Position numbers and translations under genes: made by a program. From Liolophura sinensis (taxonomy: Eukaryota; Mollusca; Polyplacophora; Chitonida; Chitonidae), in contig NC_088300.1 in NCBI RefSeq assembly GCF_032854445.1, positions 23,357,608 through 23,421,607 of the forward strand: a DNA stretch of 64,000 nucleotides. Reading direction: 5' to 3'. Of the stretch, positions 26,701 through 54,109 are shown one piece after another; the stretch's first letter is position 1; each line of letters starts with the position of its first letter. Under the pieces are notes generated by a model. The model was given only the letters and a program-made list of their open reading frames with translations. It ran no database searches and was not told the origin of the DNA.

Positions 26701-29700
26701 AATTGAGAAATACATGTAGGCATGTGCCTGCACAACCATGACACCACTGCCATTTGATTAGAAGCATATTTGGAACTTTCAAGATAAATAGAATTACTGG
26801 ACTTTCTTAGAAAAAATATGAGTCTCCTGGGTCCGTTTATTTTGCAGATATTTTGATAAAAAGAAACAAGCTGCCAAAAAGGAGCAGAAAACAGTTGATG
26901 CCTCAACTAAGGTAACCAAATGTCCCTTCCAGCAAAACTGTTTTGATCCGTGTAGTCGTCCATATGCACTGTAGAACCTTCCTTTTTTTCCCATTGTACC
27001 ATGTGACAGGCTTGAACTTAAAACCCATACTGGTGTAAGTTCAAATGAATTCGGGGGCCTCCGTGGCTCAGTTGGTTAGTGCGCTAGTGCAGCGTAATGA
27101 CCTAGGAGTCTCTCACCAGTGCTGTCACTGTGAGTTCAAGTCCAGCTCATGCTGGCTTCCTCTCCGGCCGTATGTGGGAGGTCCGTCAGCAACCTGCGGA
27201 TGGTCGTGGGTTTCCAGCCCGGGTTCTGCCCGGTTTCCACCCACCATAATGCAGGCGGCCGTTGTATAAGTGAAATATTCTTGAGTACGGCGTAAAACAC
27301 CAATTAAATAAATAAATAATAAATCACATGAATTCAAAGTTATCTTACGTTAAGTGACTATTTCATTTGAGTAAAAAAAAGTCTGCAGCAGTTTGGATTT
27401 GTACCATTTCTGGGCCAGGCATGATTTACCTTATAATTGGATGTTTATCAATTCCATTTTTGTTTTACCTATGGATATTTTCTTTGTGAGTAATTTCTTT
27501 TATCACTAGGCCTTTAAATCAGCTGAGAAGAAAACAAAACAGACGTTGAAAGACATGGCCACTGCTGTGTCTATCAACAAGACAAGGAAGACCTATTGGT
27601 ATGTAGAGTGCATGTTCTCAAACTCATTGATGAAGTAGATAGATTCTTCGGTGTAACAGGGTAGTGTATGCTTAAGGTACTATCTACCTTTCCAACTGGA
27701 GGGAATTTCCCATCAGTCTGTTGGTAAAAGCTTGGACTCCAAACCCCAACAGGGTCGACTCGTCACACTGATGTCAGAAGTGGGATGAGCTGGGGTAGCT
27801 TAAATCTACTTATGGAGGAATTTCACTTGAGTCAAGTGGTACTGTAGAAGCATGGACTCAAAACCCAAGGTCATTTTATCAAACCCCAAAAGGTTGGCTC
27901 CATCACACAGGTGTAAAACATCAGCACAAAATCTCATCATACACTGGGTCTTGAATGCTGCAGTAAGAAACCTTGTAAACACTAGTATTTCTTGATAGGC
28001 AGGATAGTTGATTTCAGAAAAAGGAAATGAGCAGGGCAGCATATTAATACATTGTGGGTGACCATGTATAAGCATATTTGGAAGACACAGTAAAACATAT
28101 TTGGCAGTATTTGTTTCAGAAATTGTTGATATTCTGTTATGTATTTCTGGCAGGTTTGAGAAGTTTTTGTGGTTTATCAGCTCGGAAAATTTCCTTGTAA
28201 TTGGTGGGCGTGATCAGCAACAAAATGAGCTAATCGTCAAGCGATACCTCAGATCAGGTGAGTGATTTACAGTTTCTGAGACCACCCACTCGTCAAGCGA
28301 TACCTCAGATCAGGTAAGTGATTGACAATTTCTGAGACCACCCACTCGTCAAGCGATACCTCAGATCAGGTAAGTGAGACCACCCACTTACTGATTGCTG
28401 AGTCTGTCTTTGTGATAGCAAGAATAAAGAATATCTTATTCGCATCCTACGGGGACTTGAGGGGCCCATAAATTTACATCATCTGTGAGTTCTTTAGTGT
28501 GTTAGAAATCAGTTTTCCGATTCTTTCTTCATAGTGGTTCATCATATTGAATTGGTACATTACTTCACCCATCTGATGATCTGATGACTTAACAGATCAA
28601 CTTCAGATAGTTACTTTGAATGGATATGTAGTTTATAGCTTCACTATAACAAGTTACTGACCAACCTTGAGTTTTGGCCTATTTCATCCATTTTCAACTG
28701 TGTTTGTTCCGTTTTTGACTTCACATTTTTTATTGTCTTGAACTGGAAGAGAATATGTACACTTTCAAAAACGCTTGTCACTTTTATTATCTAATTTTCA
28801 TTTGAAAGAATTAGAAATATCTTTTTGCAGGAGATGTGTATGTTCACGCAGACCTCCATGGAGCCAGTTCTGTTATTGTCAAAAATAACACAGGTTAGTT
28901 GAAAACTCCAAGAGACTCAAGAACCCCTTAAACTACAAGCTAAATATCTGTTGATTGTCTTATAGTCTTTAAATATTGATGATCAATTTTAGCAAATTTA
29001 TTCCTCTTTCTCCTGAGGATTACATTATTGGGTGACACTCTGCCTGTCAAGGCATCGAACTTAATGATAGACAAGTAGGTACATTAAATACCTCATAGTG
29101 AGAAATGTTAGCTTGAACAAAACATAATGAAAATAGTATATATTGATATATATCATTTGTATTGTACGTATACAGGTATTTGTTTAAAGTGTGACTTGGA
29201 CATGTGCGGCCTCTACCCTCAGATGACCCTATTTTCCCTCTACCCTCAGGTGACCCTATTCCCCCTAAGACACTTAATGAAGCTGGCACAATGGCTATTT
29301 GTAACAGCGCAGCCTGGGATGCCAAGGTTGTGACCAGTGCCTGGTGGGTCTATCCTGACCAGGTGTCCAAGACTGCCCCCACAGGGGAGTACCTGACCAC
29401 GGGTAGCTTCATGATCAGAGGTGAGTTCTAGGGGTGCTGCATAGAAGGAATGAAATTTTCTTAATAGAATGAATGAATGAATGAATGAATGAATGAATGA
29501 TTATGGCGTAATGCCACATCAGCAATATTTCAGCCATATCGTGGTGATCTTAATAGAAGAGACCTGTAAATCTGTTGTTACATTTCGTTGTCAGGGCATA
29601 TACTGTATATCAGCGTAACTTTTTTTGTGTAAAAATGCACCATTAGAAGCACATATTAAAGGCGAAAATATCACACTTTCGATGCCAGCACAAGTTTTTA

Positions 29701-32700
29701 TTATAAGAAATCAAGCTTCACCAAAACAACTCCAAGTATGCACTGTAGAATGAAGGAATTCCTCAATCTTTTTTGCATATGAAAGAGCAACTTTCAGTGA
29801 AGTTGTAGCTTTTTAATTGATTTTTAAGACAAAACTAAATAGGTTGGGTTGACTACCTTCAAGGCTTCACAAGAAGTATAATTTTATCAGTCTAAACTAA
29901 ATGATGCTAAATATGCTTGAATAAACACCTTGCTTGAATAAACACACCTTGCTTGAATAAACACATTGCAAACGATTATAAGTTGAAAAATTACAGTGGT
30001 AAGAATGAAGCAAAATTGAAGTGTCATTTTAAGAATGCTAAACTTCAGGTTAAATATACAGTACTTTGTATTTCCTGGCTGTGAAGATATAGCTGTGTTT
30101 GTGGAATTGGACATAATCTTTTTTAGGGTATAAGATAAACTGTATCATTTCACATGCACTTGTGTTTAATGTAGGATGTTGTTTCCAACTTGTTATAGAA
30201 GTTTTGGTGAAAGATGTATGGTGTTTGTCATAATACAACAAAATTGTGTATCCTTCCAGAGTATCACCATAATTGTTTGAAATGTACGTTGTTGTTCATC
30301 TGGCTGAAAGCAGTATAGTTAACATGTGTTTTGACAACAATTAGATTCACCTTATACATCTCTGTCATATTTTAGTTCTGTGAATATTTCCTTTCAGGCA
30401 AGAAGAATTACCTTCCACCGTCCTATCTTGTATATGGTTTTGGTTTCCTGTTTAAGGTATGTTTGACAAATGTACAGCTTTTTGACCATGGTAACTGTTA
30501 GCATTGTATTTTGGATTTGTGTGAATGATTTCATGTTGTAGTTTGCTGAATTGAATGACTGAATTGTATTTTTAATGCATTTTTGCAGATGTGACGAGTG
30601 TCTGCAGTGTGTATGTATTTATGTACAGTTTAGGTGCATCAGAGATATGAAATTTTGAAGTCTTCCATTTCGTTGTAGCTTGATGAAGGTAGTGTTTTCC
30701 GTCATTTGGGAGAACGAAAAGTGAAAACAGTTGAAGAAGATGCCATGTCGGTTGCTGACTCCTTACAAAGCGAGGTTACCGTAGAAACTAACAGTGGGCA
30801 TGAAAGTGAGGCTGAGGAGGATTCTGGGGAAAGTGAGACTGAGGGAGACAACCTTGCTGCAGCTGCTGATGAACTGTCAGGGGAAGTGAAGAGTGAAGAT
30901 GAAAGTGATGGTGAAAACCTTTTCCCAGACACAAACATCAGTTTACAACATGTAGAAGGGGACAAGTAAGTGACAGGATAAAATACAATTTGTCGTTACC
31001 ATTTGCTTGTACTCATAAAGAAATTAAACAATATTTCCGACAAGTACAACAAATCTTTATGCCTGTTGTGATATGCACTGGAATATTTCAACTTTTAATT
31101 GCTTTTTAACATGAAGTTTTTTGAGGCATACTCTGAGAGCATTACTATGTCTTGGCTGCTAAAAGTTACTTTCTGTGAAGCTCTAAAGTTAACCAGCTCA
31201 ACCCTTGTACATGTAGTTTTATCTCCAAAATAAAAATAAACATGTTCTGAAAAATTGCTTTTAAATATTAACTTTTATTTGCAAGAAAGTTGAGGAAGTA
31301 GGCTGAAGGTTTCCTGGAGTAATAATTCCAGTTAAACTTTGTCAGTCCTGCTTTTTGTGTTAGCCATGGGATCTCATTGTATCTTGGGGCCTCGGTGGCT
31401 CAGTTTGTTAGCGCGCTAGCACAGCACAATGACCCAGAAGCCTCTCACCAATGCGGTCGCTGTGAGTTCAACTCCAGCTCATGTTGGCTTTCTCTCCGGC
31501 CGTATGTGGGAAGGTCTGTCAGCTACCTGCGGATGGTCGTGGGTTTCCCCCGGGTTCTGCCCGGTTTCCGCCCACCATAATGTTGGCCGCCGTTGTATAA
31601 GTGAAATATTCTTGAGTACGGCGTAAAACACCAATCAAAAAAAAAAAAAAAAAAATCATTGTATCTTGGGGCCTCCGTGGCTCAGTTGGTTAGCGCGCTA
31701 GCACAGCACAATGACCCAGAAGCCTCTCACCAATGCGGTCGCTGTGAGTTCAACTCCAGCTCATGCTGGCTTCCTCTCCAGCTGTGCGTGGGAAGGTCTG
31801 TCAGCAACCTGCGGATGGTTGTGGATTTCCCCGGGCTGTGCCTCGTTTCCTCCCACCATTATGCTGCCCGCTGTCGTATAAGTGAAATTCTTGAGTATGG
31901 CATAAGACACCAATCAAATAAATAAATAAATAAAATAAATCATTGTATCTTATATGTCTGTCCCTGTTGTTTTCGATTAACCCAGTTTGCCGGTTGGATG
32001 TTTGTGCATGTATTAGGATTTGTCAATCAGCCCTGTGAACCTTCTGTGTGTTGAACAGGTTTTCTCTCCAGCCGCGACTCAGCAGTTCCCTATCCGTCAC
32101 TGAAGAGGAGAAGGTGGAAGGAACAGAGGATACAGAGACAGACGGACAGCCTGGAGAACAGGTATGCAGGATTAACTTCGTCGGGTGAGAAGAAATGTGA
32201 CGCTAGACTTGATCTACAACTTGAACTTTTGACATTGTACGAAATGAAAGACAATCTTGAGTGCTCTAAGTGGCTGAAAGTGGCTAGTCTCTAACTCGAG
32301 TCTTACGGTACATGTTTAACTTACGTTAGAGATGATAATGTCATAAGTTGCATTGCTAATGGTTTTCTTTGTATATTCAGACTGTGATGGAAATGTTTGA
32401 AAGAATGTGTTCAGCTCTTACCTGATCATTAAAAGTAAGAATGTTTTGTGATGAATGTGCAATTTAATGGTGTGTCTGCTTTCTGATTTTGGCCTGATTT
32501 TCAGCCTAAAAAACAAGGGGCAAAACTCTCAGCAAAACAAAGGCGGTAAGATATTTTTTTGAAATAATTATTTGTCACTGATTTGCATTGTCTCTGAGGG
32601 CATTGGTATTTTAATATAGAGTTTAATTGCTTTGTCGGGGCCTCCGTGGCTCAGTCAGTTAGCGCGCTAGTGCAGCGTAATGACCCAGGAGCCTCTCACC

Positions 32701-35700
32701 AATGCGGTCGCTGTGAGTTCAAGTCCAGCTCATGCTGGCTTCCTCTCCGGCCGTAAGTGGGATGATCTGTCAGCAACCTGCAGATGGTCGTGGGTTTCCC
32801 CCGGGTTGTGCCCGGTTTCCACCCACAATAATGCTGGCCGCTGTCGTATAAGTGAAATATTCTTGAGTACGGCGTAAAACACCAATCAAAAAGAAAAAAA
32901 AAATTGCTTTGTCGGAGCCTCCATGGCTCAGTTGGTTAGCGCGCTAGCATAACGTAATGACCCAGGAGTCTCTCACCAATGTGGTCGCTGTGAGTTCAAG
33001 TCCAGCTCATCCTGGCTTCCTCTATGGCCGTACGTGGGAAGGTCTGCAGCAACCTGCGGATGGTCGTGGGTTTCCAGCCCGGTTTCCTCCCACCTTAATG
33101 CTGGTCGCCGTCGTATAATTGAAGTGTTCTTGAGTACAGCGTAAAACACGAATCAAATAAATAAATAAATAAATTGCTATGTCTGGAGAATTCTGAAGCC
33201 TAGACATTATTGACTTGAGGTCAGATACGGCATTGGGGCTTCCAAAAATTAAACCATATGTTGGTATAAAATCACATAGAAATGAATGGTGGTTGTAAGT
33301 TTTACTAGATCTTATTTTTCTTGAGGTAATTGTTTAATATAAGTAGTAATTTTGTGTATACAGAATACAGAATTCCAATACAGAGTTATCAGGGTTGTCT
33401 GGTCTGCAGGATAAAGCTCTGTTGACTTAGTTTCCTGCATTACTATTAATTATATGTAATTTCATTACAGTGATGCTTAATAAGTGCTATGTCATTTTTA
33501 GGCAGCTGAAAAAAGCTAAGAAATCAAGAGGTCATGTAAATGACAAGGGTGACGAAGATGAAGATGCAGTGTCATGGCTGAAAACACAGTCGGAAGATCA
33601 AGAACAGGTGGGGCCACCATTGTTTTCTCCCTAATACTATTCCTGTCCTTGTCTGAATAATAATATCTTGAAATAACATGACTTTCACAACTGGAGTGTA
33701 GAATGCAAGACTGTTACATATTGGAAGTATGCATAAGATGACACCACATTAAAAAAAATAAAATCTTCATTCGTTCTATTGATATAAAATTTCAGTTTCT
33801 TCAGTACATTGAGATTTTTGATCAGAGGCAAATATCAATATTTAACCAAATGTCATTTACTTATATGATATGTTTGTAGGCAGAATCTTATGTTTTTATA
33901 CCCCACTACAGTTGGAGCATCTTGATTTGCATCTGTTCAGGGAAATGGGACGGAGGGAGGGGGCATCAATTAATCTTACAAAGTACAAGTTTTGTAAACA
34001 CCTACCCTTACAGACATGAGCTGTACACCTCAGTGTAAGGTATAGATGAGGTGTATGTGGGTGTGCAGCTCATGTACTACTTGGTGTGAGGCATAGATGA
34101 GGTGTACACCACATCTGTATTATCTGAGGTGTAGGCCAACTGTACCTCAAGTACACCCCAGCCAAATGCCTACACCTCAGGAACTTTGGGAAAAAACCAA
34201 CACTTAGAAGATGTACCTCAGGTACACCTTGGAAACTTTGAAAGTTTTTGAGCAGTTTTTGAATATGAGATAATGTATCTTAAATACACATCGGCAACTT
34301 CGAAAAAAATCAACCCCTAGAAGATGTACCTCAGGTACACCTTAGAAACTTTGAGAGTTTTTGATTATAATTTAGTGGTCATGTACCTCAGGTACACCTT
34401 AGAAACTTTTTTAAAGTTTTAAAACAAAAGATCAGATTTCGACATTTTACTTCAGACAAAATGGTGAGTATAAAGTTGCAAGTGTTTTTGTGAAAAGAAA
34501 AAATGTTTAGTAAATAAATATAAGCCTTTGTCTCACCCTATACTCACTTGTCATTCAGTCCAATCACAGAGCATGGATATATTTGTCCCTGATTATTCCA
34601 AGATGGCTGCCCAGAACAATGTGCGTGTTCTGTAAGACAGGTGGGAAGTTGAGGGTCATGTGATCACCCTTTTAGAATGGCTGCCCAGTGTTAAAGCACT
34701 GGGGAAATGGTCACTTTTTGCCACTTCGCTAGCGACCAGTAAGGCTTAGTTAGGGTTCTCTGTGGCTTAGGTGGTTAATGCGTTAGCGCAGTGTAATGAC
34801 CCAGGAGCCTCAACAATGCAGTTGCTGTGAGTTCAAGTCCATCTAATGCTGACTTCCTCTCCGCCTTAAGTGGGAAGGTCTGCCAGCAAACTGCAGATGG
34901 TTGTGGGATTAACCCCGGGCTTTGCCCATTTTCCTTCTTAATAGGAACCCACCATAATGCTGGCCACCGTCATAAAAATGAAATATTCTTGAGTATGGCA
35001 TAAAACACCAGTCAAATAAATGGCATAGAAAAGGAGTAGCACTAAATTTTGATCAAGCAGCTAGAAAGCTGTAAATGTGGATCACTGTTGTTGTTGTAAA
35101 AGAGCTGAGATTTACAGATACTGTAAACAAAGAACGGCATGCACTTACAAACTTACTTAAATTTATCTACAATTTATACGGCCAATATTTAATTACTTTG
35201 AGCTTGTTTTCTGTCAAAATGAAAGTGAAAATGGTGTACATTCACCTTGCCTGTAAGCATGCACCACAGCTGTACCTTAGCTACGCCTCAGGCATGTTAT
35301 TTTTTACCTAAAATTTATAGGGTAAACCTTCTGTGAGGTGTACTATAGGTGTGCTTGAGATATTAATTTGCGTAATTGGCAATACTTCAGATACACCTTC
35401 AATACACCTCAAGTATACTTTAGACACACCTCAGTTCAGATATCCTACACCCCAACTGTACACCTCAGATGTGCCTGATGTATACCTCCAGTACACCTTA
35501 TAATGGTAAGGGTAGTGCAGCATTTTGTCTGGGTATTGTTACGGATGTGACAAGCTATCCTCATTATCAAGGTGGTGAACAAACTAATCTACTTCTAGGC
35601 CACTGAAGTTTCAACCACAGAGGAGAGTCCGCAACCAGAAGCACCTAAACCACAGCAAGCACCAATCAAGAGGGGACAAAAGGTGGGTGTTTGGCTGTGA

Positions 35701-38700
35701 TACAGCTAAGGCTATCTGGACAGGTGACCTGAACTGATTTAAAGGATGTCCAAGTTTGGGACAGCCAGAAACGAATGAATGATTATGGCTTGAAGCCATA
35801 TCAGTATTACAGCGTATGTATACAGCCATACACTGTACCCTGCTGAGCTGTGAATAAAAGGATGTCCAAGTTTGGGTCAGCCAGAAACGAATGAATGATT
35901 AGGGCGTGATGCCATATCAGTATTACAGCGTATGTATACAGCCATACACTGTACCATGCTGAGCTATGAATAAAAGGATGTCCAAGTTTGGGTCAGCCAG
36001 AAACGAATGAATGATTAGGGCGTGATGCCATATCAGTATTACAGCGTATGTATACAGCCATACACTGTACCATGCTGAGCTATGAATAAAAGGATTGATC
36101 AAATACTTTGCATATACTGTCTCGGTCTCATAGTATCAGTGGGTTTATAGGCAAAATGCAGTACATGTAAAAGCATCTCCAAACCTTAGTGACACCTCAT
36201 TTAATAATGATCCTGGATCCTGGAGTTAGATTCAAAAATTGATGTAATTATAAAATAATGTAAACATTATTATGAATATATTTCTAGTCATTCCAATATT
36301 TGGAATATACCAAAGATAAACCTAGCTATTTAAAAAGAAATATTTGTTTGCAATGTGCCCTTAAGCTCATAATAGCATTTTTACCTAGCATATGAACACA
36401 GAAACCAACTTACATGAAGTATACAGACATTGCTGCATTCTGACCCACATGATAAGGTATCAAATCCTTTGAAATCACCAGAAGACCTTTGGATAAGATG
36501 ACACAAAAGTATATACTGAATTGAATAGAATTGAAAGTTTATCCACCATACGTAAATATATGTATAATTGCATATTTTGTAAATGGCGGGAATAAAGTCT
36601 GAGGAACTTCTTCTATCCCTGACTCATTATTATCAAATAATAATGCATGCTTGGTGAGCATTTATTGATGGTTAATATGAGAAGTGTAAATAAACCATCT
36701 GAATTGTGGCATTTTTGTTTCTAGAGTAAGTTGAAAAAGATGAAGGAGAAGTATGCAGATCAAGATGAAGAGGAGAGACAGTTACGCATGGAGATTTTGG
36801 CTGTATGTCTATTTTTGTTAACTTTCACATACAGTATTGATTAGTTTCTGCACCAACATGTTCATTTACAACTTTGTGCGTTTTATGTTGTCATTGTATG
36901 ACCGCATTGTGTTGCCTATAATGCAGTTCATATGTGCTGTAAACAGCTGCCATTTGGTAAATCCAGATGCTGAATTTGCATATAACTGTTGTGTTTAACT
37001 TTTATGGTGACTTTGTTACATGTGTGTGTCTAGATACAAGTAAATGATCAACATCCCTTGGAATAAATCCGTGTGCAGGTTCACCGTTTGTACTGATCAT
37101 GAAGTATGAAGTATCATGGTGGTTCTCGCATCCTCAGTAGGCTATTAGCGTTGTTCTGGATTGCCCGATGAGATTGCGGGTTCAGATCCAGCTCTGGTTA
37201 GCTCGTAAGTGGTGGTATTTTCAGAGGTTTGTCAGGTAGCTGGCAAAGTGAGGTGGTTTACTACAAAGGGAACTCCGGTTTCGTCCAACCTTAAAACTGA
37301 CAAATATTCCAACAAGGCTGCAGCCATTATTGAGGAAACAGGAGTTGAACATGCAACTTAATTTTTATCAATAATTATTGGAATAATTCTGAAAACAATA
37401 TCCAATACTTCCGTTACTTATGGTTTTTTCTTTTTTGATTCAAAAACTTTCAGTTAAAAGTGTGAACTCTTTATGGTGGTAGTTATGTACAGTGCAGACA
37501 GTAGGTAATGTCAGCGGCCTGAAGCAAATTTGTGTTTGTGCTGAAAAAAACGTTTTTGACTGCCAATTGAAAGTCCTTCAAATTTAAACAATTTAACAGC
37601 ATTGTAATAGGGCCAAATCAAAGAGCAACAACAAAGAAATACTGGACTGATGCATTTTACTGCACTGATACATCCTAACCCAACAAGAACCTGTACTGGA
37701 GTGGTTACGTGTGAGCATATGTTCTCTCTTTAGTCTGGTGGAGCGCAGAAAGAGGACAAGAGAAAGAAAAAGAAAGGCAAGAATAAAGCACCTCCTGAAA
37801 AGGTCAAAGTTCAAAATGTGCAACAACAACAGAAGGTCAAACAGCACTTGTTGTTGCAACAGCAGGCTGAACTTGCCAGACAACAACAGGCTTCATTGTC
37901 AGGTGTTACAGAGGAGTTCGCCAGAGACCAAAACACACTAGGTGAGAATATGTGCTAAGATAATATGTTTTCTATAATTTATTCTGTTTTTCTTTTTTTC
38001 GCAAAATTGATGTTTAGAAGTTTATTTTCTTTTGTGATTAGTGTTCTGTGGTGTTCACCAGCTCTCCAAGGAGAGGGAACTACATTTATTTATGGAAATT
38101 CTGGGTACCTGTTCATTGTTAAATATGCTCATTAACATAATCATATGAATATGCTCGTTAACATAATATGTGGGAAGAATGCTGGGGCATTCGAGTACAG
38201 CATTAATCTTACACTGGTATCAGGCATCAAATTGACCTTTGGAAATTTTGAGGAAATTTGTGTACTGTAATTCGTCAATCTTTTCACATGTTTGCAAGGT
38301 GTTGTTCAAGCAGATACTGAAGGTATTATACTGTGTTTACTGATAAAATTATACTTTTTGTGAAGCCCTGAAACTGGCCAATGAAAAAGTTGTGAAAAAG
38401 TTAAGGAATTAGGGTATTCATTTTCTTTCTGGGCCTTTGTTGAAATCAATGGCTCACATGGAGCAAGAATTTACCTTCTGCCTACACATGTATGTGGCCC
38501 CCATCTTGACCAAAGAAAATGTTTTTTTTTTTTAATCCACCTCTGGCTGCTGATTAAAGTCAAGAGCTTTAGAAGGAAGGGTACGTGTAGTGGTTTACCT
38601 TGGGCACTCTGGTTTTCCTTCACACATTCCACATTCCTCCATCCATGAACCACACCAGTCATTGAAATGAAAAATTCATGAAAATGGAAACATCAATGAA

Positions 38701-41700
38701 ATGAGTAATTAAATTTGTACCTAATCACCAGTGTTGTAATCAAGGAAGGTTGCATATACATGTATTTGGACTGTCATTTCAGAAACTCTATCTTCTGTAA
38801 AGCCGAGTCAGATTGTCAAACACGAAGAGGTAGGTAATTACTGATCTGTCGGTTTATATGCCTGTTGATAGTACAGAATATGTGCTGCTTTGTTGTGCTC
38901 ACTCCGACATTTGGATCTTATGTGTGTGCAGGGCAAGGTATGGAGTGAGTGAGTGCTTGGGGTTTAACGTCGTACTCAACAATTTTTCAGTCATATGACG
39001 ACGAAGGAATCCTTAGGGTACATGTACGTGTAATGTGCCTCCTTGTTGCAGGACAGATTTCCACCGCTCTTTTATTTAGTGCTGCTTCACTGAGACGACT
39101 TACCAAAGGCAAGCAAGCTGCCCTGCCCGAGCCATTATACTGATACGGGTGAACCAGTCGTTGCACTATCCCCTTCATGCTGAACGCCTTTTAAAGTCTT
39201 AGGTGTGACTCGATCAAGGATTGATCCTGGATCTACTGGTCCCGAAGTGGACGCTCTACCAACTGTGTTATCCGGGCCAGTCGGCAAGGTATGGATCCTA
39301 CGATCAGAACTTTGTAAAACCATTTAACTCTGCATCGTTGTGCTCACTCAGACATTTGGATCATGTGTGTGTGTGTGTGCAGGGCAAGGTTTGGATCGTA
39401 CGATCAGAACTTTGTAAAACCATTTAACTCCACTTTGTTGTGCTCACTCAGACATTTGGATCTTGTGTGTGTGTGCAGGGCAAGGTTTGGATCATACGAT
39501 CAGAACTTTGTAAAACCATTTAACTCTGTCTGCTTCGTTGTTCTCACTTAGACATTTGGATCTTGTGTGTGTGTGTGCAGGGCAAGGTTTGGATCGTACG
39601 ATCAGAACTTTGTAAAACCATTTAACTCCACTGCGTTGTGCTCACTCAGACATTCGGATCTTCAGTCTAAAGACTGATTTCATGCTTTTTACTCAGAATT
39701 CAAGAAATTGAAAAACATTCACATTTTTGGGAATGGATCAAGTGCAGTTTTAGTTAAGGTATTTGCATGTTTATTTCTGATAGGTTGACTTCATGTACAA
39801 GGTACATTGAAATTCCTCCAGTTTCATAATAGCCTTTTCTCTTGATTGACAAACATGTACTGGCTGAAACCGTTAGGTAGCTCATGTTGTACCCTGAGCA
39901 TCTTATAACAGGGAAAGCAATGTTAAACAAAATGTTAGGGGCAGTATCTTAAAAAGTACTGAAGGTTTAGAGATTACTTTGCACGCATAGAGCACAACAA
40001 GATGAGTGAGTGCTTGGGGTTTAACGTTTAGTGTTTGAGGGGGATATTCCATCGTTGATTCAGTGTGTACATATTAAATACAGTAAATGGCTGCATTCCT
40101 GACTTAATGTATTGTGTATTAGAATCAGAGTTAAACAAAATGATAGGGGTTGTATCTCAAAAAGCACAGCATGTATGAACCTTAAGTTTTACATGCAAAT
40201 AAAGCGCAATAACACAAGGGGAATGTCCATCGCTGATGCTCTGTGTGAATATTAATTACCTTAAATTATCAAATTCACGTCTTTTTAGTTCATTATGCAT
40301 TGAGCTGAAGTTTTGCATTCATGTAGATATCTCCTACAGGCATGCTCTTTGGTAGCCTTTGCTACCAAATGTATGTTTGGTTTCCTTTCACTGTATGGGT
40401 AATCTTCAAATTATATAATAAGACATGCCTGTAAGATTGTACGTGGAATTTTGTGGTTTTATGAGTTGGTCTTTACTTATGACTATGCTGTTGTTGTTTT
40501 GTGCACAGCTCCAATTCTTTCTTATAATGTCAACACAATTTCCTTGGGAACTAGGATATTGATGTAAATACACATTTTACACTTGCAACCGCAAGCAATC
40601 AGTTTTACACTATACATAGTGTTTATATAAATTAAACATGGAAACATTTTGAGTCAGCGCCATAATTGGCAGGCAGTGCCATAATTGGAAGAAAACCACT
40701 AAGTGGAAGGACAAACACATTGATTAGACATTTGAGGAAGGCTGAAGATCCAAATTTAGATAGCCCTGAGCATGTCTGGCCTGCTGTACATAATTGCCCA
40801 CTGGCTATAAACACCATAGATCCATTGAGGGGGTCATTATCATCCCATCATTCACCAGTCCGTGCTAATTGCACAAGTGGTACAGTACCTGTATTGGAAA
40901 GTACGGGCCAATTATCCTGGTAGACACCTTAGAAGCTGCCATGGGAGAGGGATTCACTATTCCTAGATGTGTGTGTTTGTCTAGAGTGCAGTTCATTGCT
41001 GAAGGAGGCTGCCAAGAAGGTCAACCAGAATGGTGGAGATGGGGTGATATCCCAGACTTCAGTTGTTTGTTATTCGTATCAGACATGATAATCAATACAT
41101 TGACTACATACAGTTGTATATGTGAGAAAAGACTAGTTACCTTTTCTTGCTTCTCTGAAAAAGTCAGTCTGGTTGGTGTCCTTGTGTTCTGTTCGGATAT
41201 GTCATAGTAAATTCTTTAGTGTTCAGTCAAATACATGTATTTTCCACATTGTCAGTTCTTTCACAGTTTTGCATAACAATTTGGCCTGGAAATTAATGAT
41301 ACTACCTTGTCAGTTCTTTGCAGAATGCACTGTAGTGCACAGTCCATCAGCAAGTGTTTTCAGGCTGGTCATTATTGGATATGGCATTCTGCTGATAGAG
41401 GTTATAAATGGCAGCAGCATATTTGTACATTCACGTGTAGTTACCATTTACAAGTAGTTACCATCTACATGTAGTTACCATTTACATGAAGTTACCATTT
41501 TTACCATGACACTGATTTACTGATACTTTGTTCATTTTCTTTTCTTTACATTACTTAGTGGGAAGACTAATAGTAAAATATTTAAGCTGGTATTTCCAGT
41601 CTAAGTGGCGTTATCTCCGGCTAATTGAATGGTGTCTTTATGCATTGGTATATAACAAACTGATTTAGAAAGAGTAAATTCTTCATAGCCATCAATATTT

Positions 41701-44700
41701 TGCTTGTACACTATATAGCATGCACACATAAATGTGCCAAATGTAGTCAGTCAACCTTGGACAATATTTAGCTTGCATGTCCTGTGTTTTTTAACATAGC
41801 TCTACAATTTTTAAAATACACACAGTACACATATAGCTCTTTTAACACAGTGATATTCAGCTATATGGCTGTAACATCTTTCTGTCACATGACATACAAA
41901 TGTGGGGGGAAATTTCATTTTTTCGTAATTTGATCGAAATTTGCGACAACAGCATACCTCAGAAGATAAAAATAAGACAGAATTTGTAATCAAGACACCA
42001 AAATGTCAGGTAACAAGTTTATAATCTTTAAATTCAAATTTTTTGATTTCACATAACATCACTTCCACTGTATAAGTTAAAACTTAATTTGCATACACAT
42101 TGCATTCTTTTTCTTTTCAAATAATGTCCAGGAATTGCTTGTTATGTGTGTTAAATTTTGATTGGAGTCAATCGGATTTGATATTCTGAAGAAAACGATT
42201 CTCAAATGATTTCACTTCAGCTCAAAATGGCCGCCAGGTCACATGACTCAGGTCACCCAAATTTTTACTCACCAAAGTTCATCTCAAGATCCACCACATA
42301 CCTAAGTTTCACGTAATTCTGTTGAGCCTTTTCAGCTGTGGAGTTTGTTCAATTTTGAAAAATTTGAAAATGGTTGGGGGTGGGGGGGGGGGAGGGGTTC
42401 TGACATGTACTACTTCCAGTTTGCTGACATCATTTCCGGTTATGTAGAATTTTTCTGATTGCCATAGAATGATATTATGCCTTAAGATTGCATCTCTAGC
42501 ATAATCGGTTAAGGAGATACACCCACTTCCCATTCTGATGATGTCACTTTTAGAAAAATGACATTTTTTGGAATCAGCATTCAAAACTTCATCAGATATT
42601 TGCCGGACATCATCTGTAGAAGTGTAGAAATTATTAGCAAAAGCTGAAAATTATCAGCAAAAAAAGACGAATTTTTTTGTCACGTGATCTATTTACCCAA
42701 TAGTGAGCTTGTGCAAATTTCAGCTGAGAAAGTTTTCGAATGTGCCTAGGCTTTGTGCAACTGCAGTTTAAATTTCAGCTCAATCGCACCAGCTGTTCTG
42801 GAGAAAATTTCTTTTGTTTGGCATAAATCGATTATGGCTGCCCAGTTACGCAACCAAGTGTTTCCAAAAGCTAAAAAGCACAACTTTCCTAAAACGTACT
42901 GAAGTTTCAGGGATGCACCATGTGCTACATTTTTCTCACAAAATTGGGGAGAATAATAATAATAATCCTAACAATTTCAGGTGAATTATGTTTGTGTGGT
43001 TTGTGATTGTAATCTTTGTGGAATCATCTTTGCAGGATTCTGAGTCAGAGGATGAGCAGACTGGGAAGGAAGAAGACAAATCCCAGGCAGATGTAAGGGA
43101 ACGTTTGTGTGTAGAATATTCTTCGTGTACACCAAGACCTGTTATAGCTTACTTATGGCCAAAGCTGTTTATATATAAATCTAAAAGTTGTTTAAGTTAT
43201 GCAAAGGTGCAATTACAATTAAATTCTCTGTCTTGTCTCATCATTTAGCTTCCTACATTCAGTGGTTCACAAATACTTATGTGTCCTAATAAACAGTCCA
43301 TTAATTCTTCGTGTATATATGCAACATCTAAGAGTCATTTTGTCTTTGTAAACACCATATTAAGTACTGTGTTCAACATCTTAGTCTTTTTGTAGACACT
43401 ACATTAAACATCTTGCACCATTTTAAGGTACATGTGTTTAGTGTCAGGTAAAACAATAAAAATTACATGTACATGTGAGAGCTTGTCTAATTTCTGAGGT
43501 CTGAGTTTCTGAGCCCTTTCAATGAATTCATTCATTCATTCATTCATTCAGTGCCACTTGTGTAATCTAAAACCTGCTTTTTAAAGTTCAAGTTGTTTCA
43601 TGATTCATCTGTTCTCTATGTGTATATGTAAATATGTTATTTTGTTTTTCAGGACACTCACATCCTGAACCTCTTGACTGGAATACCTGTCCCAGAGGAT
43701 GAGATTCTCTTTGCTATACCAGTGTGTGCCCCTTACCAGGCGATAAACTCTTACAAGTATGTATCACTATACCAGTGTGTGCCCCTTACCAGGCGATAAA
43801 CTCTTACAAGTATGTATCACTGTACCGTTGTGTGCCCCTTACCTGGCAATAAACTCTTACAAGTATGTATCACTGTACCAGTGAGTGCCGCTTACCAGGC
43901 GATAAACTCTTACAAGTATGTATAACTATACCAGTGAGTGCCCCTTACCAGACGATAGATTCTTACAGGTATGTATCACTATACCAGTGTGTGCCCCTTA
44001 CCAGGCGATAAACTCTTACAGGCATGTATCACTATACCAGTGAGTGCCCCTTACCAGACGATAGATTCTTACAGGTATGTATCACTATACCAGTGTGCGC
44101 CCCTTACCTGACGATAAACTCTTACAGGTATGTATCACTATACCAGTGAGTGCCCCTAACCAGACGATAGATTCTTACAGGTATGTATCACTATACCAGT
44201 GTGTGCCCCTTACCTGGTGATAAACTCTTACAGGTATGTATCACTATACCAGTGAGTGCCCCTTACCAGACGATAGATTCTTACAGGTATGTATCTCTAT
44301 ACCAGTGAGTGCCCCTTACCAGACGATAGATTCTTACAGGTATGTATCACTATACCAGTGTGTGCCCCATACCAGGCAATAAACTACAGATAAGTGTCAC
44401 TGCAGGAGACAGTGCACTTTTCCATGTCATAAGTACATGTATCTCTGTTCTGATTCTTCCCAATTCCAGGCCATGAATACAAGGGTGATTTGTTTGAAAT
44501 ATTTTGACAGACAGTGTATATCCATAATCATAGAACTGTTTTCATACATGTACAAGTATATGTAAGTTCTTGTTGGGTATAAACTGTATGGTCTACATGA
44601 TAACGGTTTCTGTTATTTTAACATCATGTGGGTAAATTTTCATATGTTTAAGGTACAAAGTCAAGCTGCTGCCTGGATCAACAAAGAAGGGCAAAGGTAA

Positions 44701-45948
44701 GCTTCCGTCAAGACATGGTGGTCTTTGTTATTTTTACGATCCATGGTGTATCACTTGCAAAACAGTAGTCAGATATATGGATGAAGGAGGGTGTGCAGAG
44801 ATAAGAAAGTGCACAGAAAAACAACAGCCATTTCTCAAGTTCCTGACTATAAACAAACACATTGGCAGCTAGAGACAACCTCATCTCTCAAGGGCTAAAT
44901 TGGAAACTCGTAAAACTCCTTCCTGCATGTATGAAGACAGCCCAGAGTTGTGAACTCATGTGTTCTTTCCTTTATTACCTGACAATTATCAGTGTACGTG
45001 TGCTTGTAAAACATATATGAAGTACACATGCACTGCAACATCACAGAGGAAAATGAAGTGTTCTAGTGTCATTTGAACTGTCTGTGTTGCTTTTCCTCGA
45101 GTCTCCCATTGGGTGTATCTAGGGCCTGTTGAAAGATAAACATAGCCTTTGAATCAGAACTATAATTGGAGCAATAATTGGACACTATATAACTTAGACA
45201 CTTTTAATGTAATGTATTACTCCTGGTTCATAGTGGGATGTAAATGTTCATAGCATCTCATGGCAGCATGACTTTCCTCGCTGTCAGTGTCAATATTCAG
45301 GGACTATGCCAAAGGTTTTAAAACGGTTATATTTCTGTTTCAGCTACCAAAACTGCCATGAATATGTTTATGCATGAGAAAGGGGCAACTGCGAGAGAAA
45401 AAGATGTCCTGCGTATTATGAAGGTAGGACTGGCCTTATTACTTGGTCAAGCATGCTGTTCTTTGATTGATATAATGGATAAAAGTTAAACATTAGACAT
45501 GTATATCTGTGTATTTACATGTACTTCATAAGCTGATGGTAATATTTCAAGGGGGGGAAAAAGACAAAAAAAAAAAAGGCTGTAATTCATGTGGCAGTAA
45601 TAATTTAAATGATTGAAGATTCATTTTTAAATTAATACTACACTTGATGATTATATCTTGTCTCTGAAATAGAAGGTTGATAATAAAATTTCAGTCCAGT
45701 TTTATGACATTGGACTTAAACCTTATTCTGTGATTTAGGGGGTTTAGGAAACCCCTTTGTTGTGATTCAGTGGTGTGAAGCATTTTAGGGATCAGAATGA
45801 GAATTTATGCATGAAAATCTACAACTATTGACTGAGAGTATCAAATCAGAAAAAAATCTGTTTCTGCTTGCAGGATGTGGACATGTCGAGGAATATCCCC
45901 GGGAAGGTGAAAGTTTCTGCTCCAAATCTCCACAAACAGCGTAAATAA
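14778..45948 (+). CDS. NEMF: NEMF (Rqc2/Tae2 homologue), complete, 34 coding exons, 1064 aa
   Basis: Core factor of ribosome-associated quality control. In the cytosol this family binds the stalled 60S subunit with peptidyl-tRNA, stabilises the ubiquitin ligase Listerin on it, and directs C-terminal tailing of the nascent chain. Exons: 14778-14833, 15983-16051, 16643-16745, 17105-17230, 17810-17955, 19505-19572, 19794-19883, 20690-20769, 20980-21047, 22533-22608, 23030-23092, 23414-23491, 24522-24569, 25674-25834, 26461-26559, 26848-26911, 27510-27598, 28154-28257, 28831-28893, 29250-29420, 30398-30456, 30679-30965, 32059-32161, 32505-32545, 33502-33607, 35599-35682, 36725-36802, 37734-37941, 38783-38829, 43036-43092, 43653-43756, 44653-44696, 45344-45423, 45874-45948. 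All introns are GT-AG and phases sum to 3195 bases. NFACT-N spans about 1-490, with Asp9 and the Asp95-Arg96 pair needed in Rqc2 relatives. A coiled coil covers about 316-375. NFACT-R covers about 493-627 (YVHADLHGA at 533-541). An acidic and Lys-rich linker follows, with a Gln-rich helix in exon 28. NFACT-C is about 965-1064, ending in [17 protein letters not shown]. Human NEMF is about 1076 residues. Introns contain many SINEs and satellites, listed separately; elsewhere I see nothing in them. Confidence 0.96.
15085..15147 (+). repeat. 3' fragment of SINE family 1 in NEMF intron 1
   Basis: It contains GTGAAATGTTCTTAAGTACG and a CGTAAAAC tail followed by AAAT units, matching the right end of the family 1 SINEs. 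Confidence 0.6.
16090..16155 (-). repeat. 3' fragment of SINE family 1 in NEMF intron 2
   Basis: Reverse-strand (ATTT)n tail, then GGTGTTTTACACCGTAGTCA and AGAATATTTTCACTTATA, which is the family 1 right end. Confidence 0.65.
16476..16562 (+). repeat. 3' fragment of SINE family 1 in NEMF intron 2
   Basis: CCATCATAATGCTGCCCGCT and GTCGTATAAGTGAAATATTC are followed by (AAAT)n. The tRNA-like head is missing. Confidence 0.75.
18355..18500 (+). mobile_element. Partial SINE family 1 in NEMF intron 5
   Basis: The tRNA-like head is present (A box within AGCTCAGTTGGTTAGC, B box GAGTTCAAGTCC), but the central and right parts are degenerate after about 18490. It is an old or interrupted copy. Confidence 0.7.
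18594..18640 (-). repeat. 3' tail fragment of SINE family 2
   Basis: GTGAGTGAGTGAGTGCTTAG followed by a decayed GGTATAAC segment matches the reverse strand of the family 2 tail only. Confidence 0.5.
20023..20150. repeat. Foldback (MITE-like) element in NEMF intron 7
   Basis: The left end GGCTGGTTTCATGAAGC and the right end GCTTCATGAAACTGGCC are near-perfect inverted repeats around a 90-base centre that contains further short complementary words. This is the structure of a small terminal-inverted-repeat element. The target duplication is unclear. Confidence 0.7.
20267..20391. repeat. 21-bp minisatellite, six units, in NEMF intron 7
   Basis: Units are variants of AGTAGATGGTTTACCCCAGA plus one base, with starts spaced 21 bases apart. 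The period is divisible by three, so the minus strand reads as a regular peptide repeat. There is no start context or flanking coding signal, so I treat it as non-coding. Confidence 0.9.
21420..21710. repeat. Two diverged direct copies of a ~170-bp unit in NEMF intron 9
   Basis: Both units carry ACAACTCCAACAGTTTT or its variant TATAACTCCAACAGTTTT, then GAGTTTTAATTT, a GACACATTTGTCC-like stretch and a GTTGTCATGG or GTTGTCGTGG stretch. I do not recognise the family. Confidence 0.6.
21830..22082 (-). mobile_element. SINE-like element, family 3, in NEMF intron 9
   Basis: On the reverse strand it shares CTCGCTTGGCGCTCAGCACTG, a GGTTGGCCCAGTGTCAGTG-like stretch and a GCGTCTTCTGC-like stretch with 47215-47545. 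Confidence 0.5.
22140..22330 (+). repeat. Unclassified SINE-like repeat in NEMF intron 9
   Basis: AATCCAGCTCTC (a B-box-like context), GGCTGCTGCTTTAAGTCGGG and GTGGTTTACACC are followed by a short (AATA)n end. Related words occur at 37130-37335 and around 38545-38640. The assignment is tentative. Confidence 0.4.
23533..23800 (-). mobile_element. SINE family 1, full-length, NEMF intron 12
   Basis: On the reverse strand it runs from GGGGCCTCCATGGCTGAGGT through the B box GAGTTCAAGTCC and the conserved central block to an (AAAT)n tail. It is diverged from the younger copies at 31-33 kb. Confidence 0.85.
23874..23968 (+). repeat. 3' fragment of SINE family 1, NEMF intron 12
   Basis: CCACACACCATAATGCTGAG and CATATTCCTGAGTACTGC with an AAAT-rich end, a decayed right half. 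Confidence 0.55.
24271..24450. repeat. 180-bp inverted repeat with 53-base arms, NEMF intron 13
   Basis: The arm 24271-24323 (starting TAAAATAGAAAGTTGTCAGA) is the near-exact reverse complement of 24398-24450 (ending ACAATTTTCCATTTTA). About 74 bases lie between them. It has no coding capacity. A MITE or snapback element is likely, and the transcript could form a long hairpin. Confidence 0.85.
25431..25530 (+). repeat. Dispersed repeat, copy 2 (partner at 1858-1953)
   Basis: TTAGGTATGG, ATTTATTCAAGC, GTTAGCCAATCAGC and CGATTCTGTGTC are found in the same order as at 1858-1953. It lies in NEMF intron 13, just upstream of exon 14. Confidence 0.55.
26296..26446 (+). mobile_element. 5'-truncated SINE family 1 inside the exon 15 splice acceptor
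   Basis: It starts within the central block (CGTATGTGGGAAGGCCTGTC) and ends in (AAAT)n. A perfect 13-base duplication, TTGTTGGTTTTCA, lies at 26283-26295 and 26447-26459. The right-hand copy, plus the following G, is the polypyrimidine tract and AG used by NEMF exon 15 at 26461. The left-hand copy is followed by C and is not an acceptor. Confidence 0.92.
27053..27327 (+). mobile_element. SINE family 1, full-length, NEMF intron 16
   Basis: A complete copy: GGGGGCCTCCGTGGCTCAGT head with A box, B box GAGTTCAAGTCC, the central block with AACCTGCGGATGGTCGTGGG, and right end AGTACGGCGTAAAACACCAA with an (AAAT)n tail. An 8-base ATGAATTC at 27045-27052 and 27328-27335 is the probable target-site duplication. 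Confidence 0.9.
28234..28401 (+). repeat. Triplicated exon 18 donor junction (56-bp period)
   Basis: The last ~24 coding bases of NEMF exon 18 (TCGTCAAGCGATACCTCAGA and the following TCAG) plus the donor and ~32 intronic bases are repeated in tandem. Donor GT dinucleotides fall at 28258, 28314 and 28370. The first is GTGAGT, the two downstream are GTAAGT. Reading past the first donor meets TGA at the third codon position (GGT GAG TGA), so only the first donor keeps the protein open. Confidence 0.93.
29211..29264 (+). repeat. Duplicated exon 20 acceptor (27-bp period)
   Basis: CTCTACCCTCAG followed by ATGACCCTATTTTCC (29211-29237) is repeated as CTCTACCCTCAG followed by GTGACCCTATTCCCC (29238-29264). 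The second AG is the acceptor that gives the conserved NFACT-R reading. Use of the first AG (exon from 29223) would add 27 bases, nine residues, in frame and without a stop. Confidence 0.9.
29466..29553. repeat. (GAAT)n with adjoining repeat fragment, NEMF intron 20
   Basis: About eight GAAT units, then GATTATGGCGTAATGCCACA and AATATTTCAGCCATATCGTG. Same fragment type as at 1234-1299. Confidence 0.7.
31387..31655 (+). mobile_element. SINE family 1, upstream member of a same-target pair
   Basis: Full-length copy with a homopolymer A tail. It is flanked by TCATTGTATCTTG at 31374-31386 and again at 31656-31668. Confidence 0.92.
31669..31939 (+). mobile_element. SINE family 1, downstream member of a same-target pair
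   Basis: Full-length copy with an (AAAT)n tail. It is flanked by TCATTGTATCTT at 31656 and at 31940-31951. The target sequence therefore occurs three times around the two SINEs in NEMF intron 22. Confidence 0.92.
32637..32901 (+). mobile_element. SINE family 1, upstream member of a second same-target pair
   Basis: Full-length copy ending in a nearly pure A tail interrupted by one G. AATTGCTTTGTC flanks it at 32625-32636 and 32902-32913. Confidence 0.92.
32914..33171 (+). mobile_element. SINE family 1, downstream member of a second same-target pair
   Basis: Full-length copy ending in (AAAT)n. The third copy of the target, AATTGCTATGTC (one mismatch), is at 33172-33183. It lies in NEMF intron 24. 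Confidence 0.92.
34020..34420. repeat. Irregular array of GTACACCTCA-like words, NEMF intron 25
   Basis: Many variants of TACCTCAGGTACACCTT and its reverse complement (AGGTGTACC) occur, including three units with GATGTACCTCAGGTACACCT or close variants followed by TAGAAACTTT. A second block of the same vocabulary is at 35262-35500, with a SINE between them. Confidence 0.7.
34748..35024 (+). mobile_element. SINE family 1, diverged copy, NEMF intron 25
   Basis: Head TCTGTGGCTTAGGTGGTTAA, B box GAGTTCAAGTCC, and right end TATTCTTGAGTATGGCATAA. It contains a 14-base insertion before CCACCATAATGC. It lies between the two CTCAGGTACACC blocks. Confidence 0.8.
35262..35500. repeat. Second block of GTACACCTCA-like words, NEMF intron 25
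   Basis: TGTACCTTAGCTACGCCTCA, AATACACCTCAAGTATAC, TACACCTCAGATGTGCCTGA and similar variants occur. The vocabulary matches 34020-34420. Confidence 0.6.
35741..36092. repeat. Three tandem 116-bp units, NEMF intron 26
   Basis: Each unit starts AAAGGATGTCCAAGTTTGGG, contains GAATGAATGATTA with a degenerate (GAAT)n-repeat fragment, and ends near GCTGAGCTATGAATAAA. Unit starts are at 35741, 35857 and 35973, exactly 116 apart. Confidence 0.92.
37130..37335 (+). repeat. Unclassified SINE-like repeat, NEMF intron 27
   Basis: GCGGGTTCAGATCCAGCTCT resembles a tRNA B-box region and is followed by GTGAGGTGGTTTACTACAAA. It shares words with 22140-22330. Tentative. Confidence 0.4.
38864..39660. repeat. 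~98-bp minisatellite, about 4.5 units, split by a SINE, NEMF intron 29
   Basis: Units contain GGCAAGGTTTGGATCGTACG, ATCAGAACTTTGTAAAACCA, GTGCTCACTCAGACATTTGG and a variable (GT)n. Unit starts are 39283, 39383, 39479 and 39581. The upstream partial unit ends at the SINE inserted at 38945. Confidence 0.92.
38945..39282 (-). mobile_element. SINE family 2 with 13-base target-site duplication, NEMF intron 29
   Basis: It is read on the reverse strand: head with TAACACAGTTGGTAGAGCGT, B-box-like GGATCAATCC, and (CACT)n tail. GGCAAGGTATGGA is perfectly duplicated at 38932-38944 and 39283-39295. It inserted into one unit of the surrounding minisatellite. Confidence 0.95.
39661..43035. other. Largest NEMF intron (29), remaining part
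   Basis: Mostly unremarkable intronic DNA. A four-unit GTAGTTACCATTTACA-type repeat is at 41435-41505 and a G-rich tract at 42375-42398 (a run of twelve G flanked by shorter runs) could form a G-quadruplex in the transcript. A plus-strand open frame around 40666-40923 has no recognisable protein similarity. Confidence 0.4.
43525..43550. repeat. (ATTC)n microsatellite, NEMF intron 30
   Basis: Six tandem ATTC units. Confidence 0.9.
43713..44395 (+). repeat. Thirteen-unit array of the exon 31 donor junction (53-bp period)
   Basis: The array begins inside NEMF exon 31: the coding segment CCAGTGTGTGCCCCTTACCA through CTCTTACAA plus donor GTATGT and following bases is the first unit. Twelve more units follow in intron 31, with the CCAGTG word (or its variant) every 53 bases from 43720 to about 44356. 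Later units alternate between a GTGTGCCCCTTACC type with GATAAACTC and a GAGTGCCCCTTACC type with GATAGATTC, suggesting a 106-bp higher-order unit. Most units keep a splice-donor-like ACAAGTATGT or ACAGGTATGT. Only the first donor preserves the NFACT-C frame; reading on meets TAA within the second unit. Confidence 0.95.
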
Positions 45949-47950: not shown

Positions 47951-48640
47951 GGAAAAGGATTGGAAAACAGGAAACGCTGTCACAAATTGTATACCAATGG
48001 GGGATATACATTGTGTTTGTTTACTTGTTTTATTGGCTAATAATGTGGACCGTGTACCCGCCGTGAAGGTCACAGACGCGGAAACTTGGTAAGGGGTAAA
48101 ATTACAGTTCCTGAAGCCTGGGCAGAAAATGAATTTATATAATTGATTGGGGCTTGAAGCCGGCGCTCAAGAACAGTCACTTATGTAAAGATGGCGATCA
48201 GAATTATGGTCATCAGTGTACAGATGGCAACAAAAACCGGCTAAGATTAGCCACTGGCCAATTAGTGGAATCGTTTGTCCACGGATTTGGTTGTGAATTT
48301 AAGCCAGACAGTTTGTCAAGTTTTTCTACCCTGTCGTCTTCCACCATATAAGTCTGAACTGTTGGGGTCATTGTATTATTGCACCACCCAAGACCCGGTT
48401 ACCTGGTTATTGTCACACTCAAAAAGATTAGTCTGGCAATTTAAAGAGAAAGCCTCTTTGAGTGATACTAGAATGTATTTTGCTTTTGCAACAGATTATT
48501 GTGTTAAATATATACACATATTCTATTAAGTAGTGGATAAATCTTTGAAAATAATCCACGAGGCGCGAAGTGCCAATGTAAACCACAGTCACAGCTGCTG
48601 GATTATTTTTCAAGAATCAAGTTATTGTCCTCTGAAACAA
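47951..48640. other. No gene recognised
   Basis: Short open frames only. No repeat anchor found except the left copy of the SINE target duplication at 48628-48640. Confidence 0.4.
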
Positions 48641-48982
48641 CCGGCCCCGATGGCACAGTTGTTAGCGTTCGCTTCGGGAGGCGGGAGATCCAGGGTCAAT
48701 CCTGGGTCGAGTCATACATAAGACCTTAAAAGCGGAAGTTGTAATTCGCTTGGCGCCCAGCATTAAGGGAATAGTGCAACGACTGGTTGACCCATATCAG
48801 TATAATGGCTTGGATGGGGCGCATTACTTGCCTTCGGTAAGGCGTCTCAGTGAAGCAGCGCTAGATAAAAGAGCGGTGGAGATCCTTCCTGCAACAAGAA
48901 GGCACATTGCATACACTCTAAGGATTCCTTCGTCGTCATATGACTGAAAAAGTACGGTGTTAAACCCCAAGCACTTACTCAC
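48641..48982 (+). mobile_element. SINE family 2
   Basis: Full-length but diverged: head CCGGCCCCGATGGCACAGTT, B-box-like GGGTCAATCC, ending in ACTTACTCAC. The probable duplication is TCCTCTGAAACAA (48628-48640) and TCCTCTGGAACGA (48983-48995), 11 of 13 identical. Confidence 0.88.
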
Positions 48983-49165
48983 TCCTCTGGAACGAATTAC
49001 CGGTCAAAATTGCATTCATTTTCTGGAAATACCAGGACTCACCTCCATGTTACAAGAGAACACTTAGTTCGTGTCGCTTTATACAAAGAACATCTGCACA
49101 CATCCCGACTTCCATTCACTTCAAGCGCTGGGATAATGCATGGCTATGCAAAGAAGGTACCGCTG

Positions 49166-53289: not shown

Positions 53290-53528
53290 TCTTTCTTTAG
53301 TTATTTGATTGATGTTTTACGCCGTACTCAAGAATATTTCACTTATACGACGGCGGCCAGCATTATGGTGGGGGGAAACCCACGACCATCCGCAGGTTGC
53401 TGCAGACCTTCTCGCATACGGCCGGAGAGGAAGCCAGCATGAGCTGGACTTGAACTCACAGCCACCGCATTTGTGAGAGGCTCCTGGGTCATTACGATGC
53501 GCAGTAACCTACTGAGCCACGAACGCCC
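53290..53528 (-). mobile_element. SINE family 1 within unit A
   Basis: On the reverse strand: diverged head, B box GAGTTCAAGTCC, CAACCTGCGGATGGTCGTGG and a right end with TACGGCGTAAAACATCAATC. It has a small internal deletion in the CCCGGGCTCTGCCCGG part. Confidence 0.85.
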
Positions 53529-53587
53529 CCCTCCCCCCCCCCCGGATTAATGGTCTATGCTGCAGCAGCATGCGGCGGAATTCGACG

Positions 53588-53588
<1 letters not shown>

Positions 53589-53650
<62 letters not shown>
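53589..53650. repeat. (TA)n microsatellite
   Basis: About 60 bases of alternating TA, expanded at the place where units B and C have only a short AATATATATG. Confidence 0.95.
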
Positions 53651-53654
<4 letters not shown>

Positions 53655-53671
53655 CCACATTTTAAGAGTTT

Positions 53672-53922: not shown

Positions 53923-54109
53923 AAATCGACAAATAAGAGTTTAAAGGTGGCCATCATGGTACATGTCCTTTTTGGGTACGCCACTCAGATACGTGTGACC
54001 ATTTCCCAGCTATTCCGTTGTCGCTGTTCTAGTTTTACTCTCTATGCTGTGTTATTTCATACATGTACTGCGAATGCAAACCTGGTGTCTTTAGCATTGC
54101 TCCTGGTAA

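Follow-up and report, generated by a model that had tools for sequence, protein, structure and literature searches.

A minisatellite across a splice donor of the NEMF gene in the chiton Liolophura sinensis, and similar arrays at the exon ends of other genes

The chiton Liolophura sinensis has a NEMF gene in which the donor site of a coding exon is included in a tandem array with a period of 53 bp, and 10 of the 12 copies lying downstream of this donor have kept a GT donor of their own (three with CAA and seven with CAG). We propose that this array is a minisatellite that has caught a splice junction (a "mirage"); it probably grew by slippage or unequal exchange and is probably tolerated through exon definition. 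The window, i.e. the whole stretch of DNA analysed, covers 64,000 nt of the forward strand of NC_088300.1 (GCF_032854445.1). The chiton assembly is reported to comprise 609.5 Mb in 632 scaffolds, with an N50 of 37,343,639 and a longest scaffold of 96,433,062 (PMC11068029), and the species name L. japonica was later corrected to L. sinensis (PMC12441733).

The 53-bp array and its place in NEMF

A gene model was obtained by a tblastn search with human NEMF, after which the exon boundaries were read off the sequence (Table 1). The gene is NEMF/RQC2, a member of the NFACT family, as the earlier note had named it: the best PDB match of the window exons is human NEMF (9gy4_Z, E-value 3.3e-80), and the profile search recovers all three NFACT domains, namely NFACT-N (PF05833, E-value 7.7e-37), NFACT-R_1 (PF05670, E-value 7e-45) and NFACT-C (PF11923, E-value 1.8e-32). 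NEMF acts in protein quality control. The reading phases on either side of a 5.1-kb gap (37942-43035) do not match, so that at least one NEMF exon must lie inside this gap; otherwise the gene model reads through intact. The exon that opens the array is number 29 in the model and had been counted as 31 in the earlier note; once the missing exon or exons are added, the two numbers agree to within one or two. A scan of the window with Rfam at the gathering threshold gave no match.

Tandem Repeats Finder describes the array at exon 29 as 12.7 copies of period 53, with 90% matches, a score of 1043 and a length of 672 bp, and the array is located at one place only in the assembly. Arranged in the register of the donor, it consists of 13 units: the genuine unit is followed by 12 copies, each unit being composed of 43 nt of exon and 10 nt of intron. 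The last unit is damaged and has no GT. Donors were scored with a weight matrix built from the 29 other NEMF donors, on which the genuine site falls at the median of the gene. The downstream copies with CAG score above it (Table 1), and their predicted pairing with U1 is also stronger (-7.8 kcal/mol versus -1.6 kcal/mol for the CAA donor). Most units contain a second, weaker GT site, CCA|GTGAGT or CCA|GTGTGT (scores of 5.1 or 3.7), and one of these weaker CCA|GT-type sites, at position 43722, falls inside the genuine exon 29. The unit types alternate from unit 5 onward, unit 8 being mixed, and the latest growth would have taken place in two-unit steps. These data agree with the earlier note on the array, its 53-base period and its location over an exon/intron junction, on downstream donors that are often stronger than the genuine one, and on an alternation of unit types that points to two-unit steps. 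Its "twelve decoys" stand as copies, but only ten of them are GT decoys, one having a GC and another having lost the site.

The codon that crosses the junction, AA|G, encodes a lysine in the run YKYKVK, which alignments show to be common to human NEMF and yeast RQC2. A CAG at the genuine site would convert this codon to AGG and the conserved lysine to arginine, and the lysine codon may for this reason hold the genuine donor at CAA. Intronic copies, which carry no such codon constraint, would have been free to turn to CAG. The presence of four CAA units in a row at the exon end could instead be mere history.

The next exon of the model has a weak acceptor (Table 1). In the same intron, between positions 44450 and 44511 of the window, two acceptor-like sites (exon starts at 44470 and 44511) score 6.3 and 8.2 and far outscore this genuine acceptor.

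Table 1. Positions of the features of NEMF and of the junction-crossing arrays (window coordinates, except for the arrays in flippase and dynein loci).
Feature	Position	Strand	Description
NEMF gene	14778..45948	+	32 modelled exons, 62 junctions; at least one exon missing in 37942-43035
53-bp tandem array	43714..44385	+	spans the donor of NEMF exon 29 (model numbering)
Coding exon 29	43653..43756	+	104 nt, 35 residues; its last 43 nt open the array
Genuine donor CAA|GTATGT	43757..43762	+	8.2 bits
In-frame TAA	43797..43799	+	met with any decoy
Three decoy donors CAA|GTATGT	43810, 43863, 43916 (43810..43921)	+	same as genuine donor
Seven stronger decoys CAG|GTATGT	43969, 44075, 44128, 44181, 44234, 44287, 44340 (43969..44345)	+	11.1 bits
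Copy with CAG|GCATGT	44022	+	GC, not GT; within 43969..44345
Next exon (model 30)	44653..44696	+	weak acceptor ending AAG, 1.6 bits
Second junction array, donor side	28234..28377	+	56 bp x 2.6; crosses the donor of exon 18 (28154-28257)
Third junction array, acceptor side	29210..29266	+	27 bp x 2.1; crosses the acceptor of exon 20 (start 29250)
L025, flippase, donor side			34 bp, 18.6 copies; clear
L038, flippase, acceptor side			40 bp, 3.1 copies; clear; found by reading, unflagged by the automatic rule
L018, flippase	1752-2091 (in L018)		21 bp, 16.2 copies, continuing the reading frame of the exon hit at its end; probable
L056, dynein, donor side			58 bp, 2.2 copies, decoy identical; clear
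L064, dynein, donor side			35 bp, nine copies, six GTAAGT including the genuine one; clear
L066, dynein, acceptor side	1502-2947 (in L066)		66 bp, 22.1 copies; clear

Choice of the donor and its consequences

The products of the decoys at 43810, 43863, 43969 and 44340 were translated, and all four end at the same TAA, in the second unit as the earlier note had placed it. This codon precedes the first decoy, and the remaining decoys must therefore meet the same stop. The NFACT-C profile is matched over positions 2-104 of 104 in the normal product and over positions 2-39 in the decoy product, so that most of this domain is lost, again as had been claimed. Three modelled exons follow the shared stop. 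Messages with an early stop and exons downstream are removed by nonsense-mediated decay, and this would be the expected fate of the product of a rare use of a decoy.

Tolerance of the array may be understood as follows. The array would have grown into the intron, where length is free. Exon 29, with 104 nt, is short, and the introns on its two sides, with 560 and 896 nt, are long; pairing of the splice sites would therefore take place across the exon and select the donor closest to the acceptor of the exon itself, so that the array would be tolerated. The three closest decoys equal the genuine site in strength and would lengthen the exon to 157, 210 and 263 nt, respectively; the stronger CAG donors start at exons of more than 300 nt, the decoy exons then ranging from 316 nt, with the first stronger donor, to 687 nt. 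Exon definition predicts the use of the exon-proximal one among equal donors, which makes the NEMF case less paradoxical than it first seems. Experiments reported on competing donors point in the same direction: in five minigenes placed in human cells, each with a pair of identical donors and flanking introns of 365 nt, splicing went only to the upstream donor, and donor strength has less influence on alternative exons longer than 250 nt (58% versus 87%) (PMC9225289). The same source also gives figures of the opposite sense. In human data, the major donor is the stronger of the competing sites in 86% of events and, before correction for strength, every class showed a preference for the downstream donor, the exon-defined one included (PMC9225289). 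The 86% figure and the seven stronger decoys count against a tolerance through exon definition, with the reservation that these data are human and not molluscan.

These same two facts, decoys that outscore the genuine donor and a major donor that usually is the stronger, would be expected if the decoys were used often; NEMF would then be expressed as a mixed pool of messages, many of them with an early stop, and the array would be a slightly harmful load. We consider this unlikely, since exon-defined minigenes with identical donors used only the upstream one (PMC9225289), the amphioxus mirages are reported to be normally spliced (PMC3087553, PMC3902484) and NEMF is otherwise intact in its reading in this chiton. 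The retention of a predicted working donor in 10 of the 12 copies, together with the single stop that all decoys share three modelled exons before the end of the model, would suit a ladder of regulatory sites in which a tuned use of decoys sets the level of NEMF through nonsense-mediated decay. Arrays with the same layout nevertheless occur in unrelated genes (see below), which points to a by-product and leaves such a regulatory role very unlikely.

Still smaller is the probability that the array is an error of assembly. Long arrays are prone to mis-assembly, and the amphioxus draft is reported to have contained errors of this type (PMC3087553), but the units differ from one another in an ordered way and the HiFi reads, with an average of 8,347 bp (PMC11068029), are far longer than the array. 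We give equally little credit to an intron or an exon in the making. In the CAG units, which read TTCTTACAG|GTATGT or CTCTTACAG|GTATGT, a signal resembling an acceptor directly adjoins one resembling a donor, and such units could be recruited; new introns are also reported to arise by tandem duplication (PMC3087553, PMC4974935); against this, just three acceptor-like sites of the array reach 3 bits, the best one having 4.9, and the TAA in unit 2 blocks the frame. A minisatellite tolerated through exon definition is the reading that we retain as the probable one.

Junction-crossing minisatellites in NEMF and in other genes

Two other junction-crossing arrays have been detected in NEMF, one on the donor side and one on the acceptor side (Table 1). 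At exon 18, the genuine donor CAG|GTGAGT (28258, score 11.4) is followed by two decoys CAG|GTAAGT at 28314 and 28370 (score 12.4). These decoys are slightly stronger than the genuine donor and would give exons of merely 160 and 216 nt, so that exon size offers no protection to exon 18. At the other 59 NEMF junctions, a search for hidden older duplications found none above the 90% point of a null drawn from random positions, although this test responds poorly to close copies: the known acceptor array scored only 13 in it.

The survey of other genes was carried out on two families, flippases (38 of the 47 profile hits, i.e. 76 exon ends) and dyneins (86 of the 86 hits, i.e. 172 exon ends), these exon ends being the ends of profile hits rather than proven junctions. 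Eight flippase hits without sequence of their own and one located at an edge were left out, as were the six hits of a search for the MRP family. The flippases display two clear junction arrays and a probable one, and the dyneins three clear ones; together with NEMF (three arrays for 62 junctions), this amounts to eight clear cases in 310 exon ends, or nine if the probable array of L018 is included. This last array reads (YPHGWYI)n in frame from the flippase exon hit, and it may be both coding and junction-spanning. Upstream of the same exon, a 65-bp array resembles the acceptor over 16 bases only. In L066, a search with the acceptor pattern matched four decoys among the 22.1 copies, all TTTGAG, with scores between 1.9 and 7.5 bits versus 8.2 for the genuine TTTCAG. 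Arrays that are only adjacent to exons number two in the flippases (L031 and one on C12) and four in the dyneins, and one more lies inside a dynein exon hit; among them, L053, L055, L057 and the array near the C12 flippase exon were called adjacent from their coordinates alone.

The acceptor-side arrays (29210-29266 in NEMF, L038 and L066) also fit exon definition. A rule by which the first site to be transcribed is the one taken would favour their decoys.

In the gene regions measured, 2 to 6% of the bases belong to minisatellites: 1,912 of 31,171 bases in NEMF, 4,724 of 73,769 in the dynein regions, and 371 of 20,000 and 865 of 20,000 for two flippase genes. When the nine minisatellites of NEMF are placed at random, 2.3 junction-crossing arrays are expected and three are seen (P = 0.42). 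The expectation based on coverage is 3.8 for NEMF, where three are seen, and 11.0 for the dynein regions, where three are also seen; the Poisson probability of three or fewer when 11 are expected is 0.005, a rough figure because the arrays clump in few loci. Neither coverage nor random placement thus supports an excess of arrays at junctions, and their location there calls for no particular explanation. If a mechanism were directed at splice junctions, it would instead create such arrays beyond the number expected by chance. Weak support for it comes from a stricter null, with one seed unit per array, under which 0.64 arrays are expected in NEMF versus three seen (P = 0.018), and the amphioxus literature treats mirages as a distinct phenomenon (PMC3087553). 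Set against the random placement of whole arrays in NEMF and the coverage values of both NEMF and the dyneins, this directed origin appears improbable, and we conclude that the junction arrays arise as a by-product of the abundance of minisatellites and that selection has perhaps thinned them.

Several other features of the window and of the assembly were observed. A 32-bp array of 15.7 copies lies outside NEMF, at 59478-59978 of the window. Two SINE-like families are present in the window; the first (23536-35016 and 53304-55639) has ten or more copies, each about 220-330 bases long, in the 64 kb, and the second is found at 9062-9404, 11298-11640, 38944-39281 and 48633-48983. The SINE-like tails in the window appear molluscan; pattern scans of viral contigs and of genome contigs gave no match, and neither did a literature search for the SINE sequence. 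An intronless open frame of 335 codons (6831-7838, + strand) resembles by eye a short-chain dehydrogenase and is a candidate for this family. Contig C99 (108,685 bases) contains, in L006-L011 and L013, seven matches to COX1 at steps of about 15.5 kb, as would be seen with mitochondrial genomes linked in head-to-tail order, and an eighth COX1 match is found on C632 (15,209 bases). This mitochondrial contig of 15,209 bases carries nad1, nad6, cob, nad4L, nad4 and nad5 on one strand and cox3, nad3, nad2, cox1, cox2 and atp6 on the other, cox1 having been identified by profile and the other genes named by eye; we take this gene order to be the ancestral molluscan one.

Significance and comparison with known systems

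The arrays described here bring the mirage phenomenon into a distant phylum and tie it to the plain abundance of minisatellites. By extrapolation, junction minisatellites could occupy a few percent of exon ends, that is thousands of junctions, with copy numbers that vary between animals. They would then represent a standing natural experiment, in which arrays of near-identical sites challenge exon definition, and would continually supply new exon ends and introns; mirages would be a property of minisatellite-rich genomes in distant phyla and not a peculiarity of amphioxus. We put forward this generalization as a tentative one, which may well prove too broad. The NEMF array itself constitutes a sharp natural test of the choice among near-identical donors: nearly all messages should use 43757 under exon definition, the distant decoys should be chosen if proximity across the intron decides, and the CAG copies should win if raw strength does. 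Such a splicing test is within reach, since RNA-seq data from five tissues, SAMN35319765 to SAMN35319769, are listed for the species (PMC11068029). Gene predictors may call copies of this type exons, as is reported for PGBD5 of the lancelet (PMC3902484).

The literature search recovered junction-spanning tandem copies in amphioxus and one potato duplication; none in a mollusc was found among the matches listed, which covered few subscription papers, and a mollusc paper on introns mentions, in its available text, only microsatellites there (PMC3862624). Mirages are known from amphioxus Adh3 and the globins BflGb6 and BflGb9 (PMC3087553), and are reported for lancelet PGBD5 and troponin C (PMC3902484). 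They are described as minisatellite-like copies over an exon-intron boundary, on the donor or the acceptor side, with units of 10 to about 160 bp, many of which contain AG or GT signals (PMC3087553, PMC3902484). The NEMF array is of the same build, its units spanning the exon-intron boundary and carrying splice signals. It differs from them in its number of units, 13 versus two to seven copies in the globin and PGBD5 cases, and in its host, a chiton and not a cephalochordate; the occurrence in cephalochordates only is taken here as a matter of range rather than as a structural feature. Length instability and a splicing that is normal as far as it was tested are reported for the amphioxus mirages (PMC3087553). 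Judged by its structure, we would file the NEMF array as an extension of the mirage kind, known from amphioxus, to a new phylum.

The array is also related to the gain of introns by tandem duplication, as reported for the potato RdRp gene and formulated in the AGGT model of Rogers, where a duplication over a boundary likewise multiplies the splice signals (PMC4974935). In the potato gene, a single duplication has led to a new intron that is in use (PMC4974935), whereas the many copies of NEMF give no sign of a new intron. Finally, the NEMF array resembles the competing identical 5' splice sites studied in human genes and cells, in which several equal donors follow one acceptor and the flanking introns are long; the donors of that study were in pairs (PMC9225289), whereas in the chiton one genuine donor stands against ten GT decoys, seven of them stronger.
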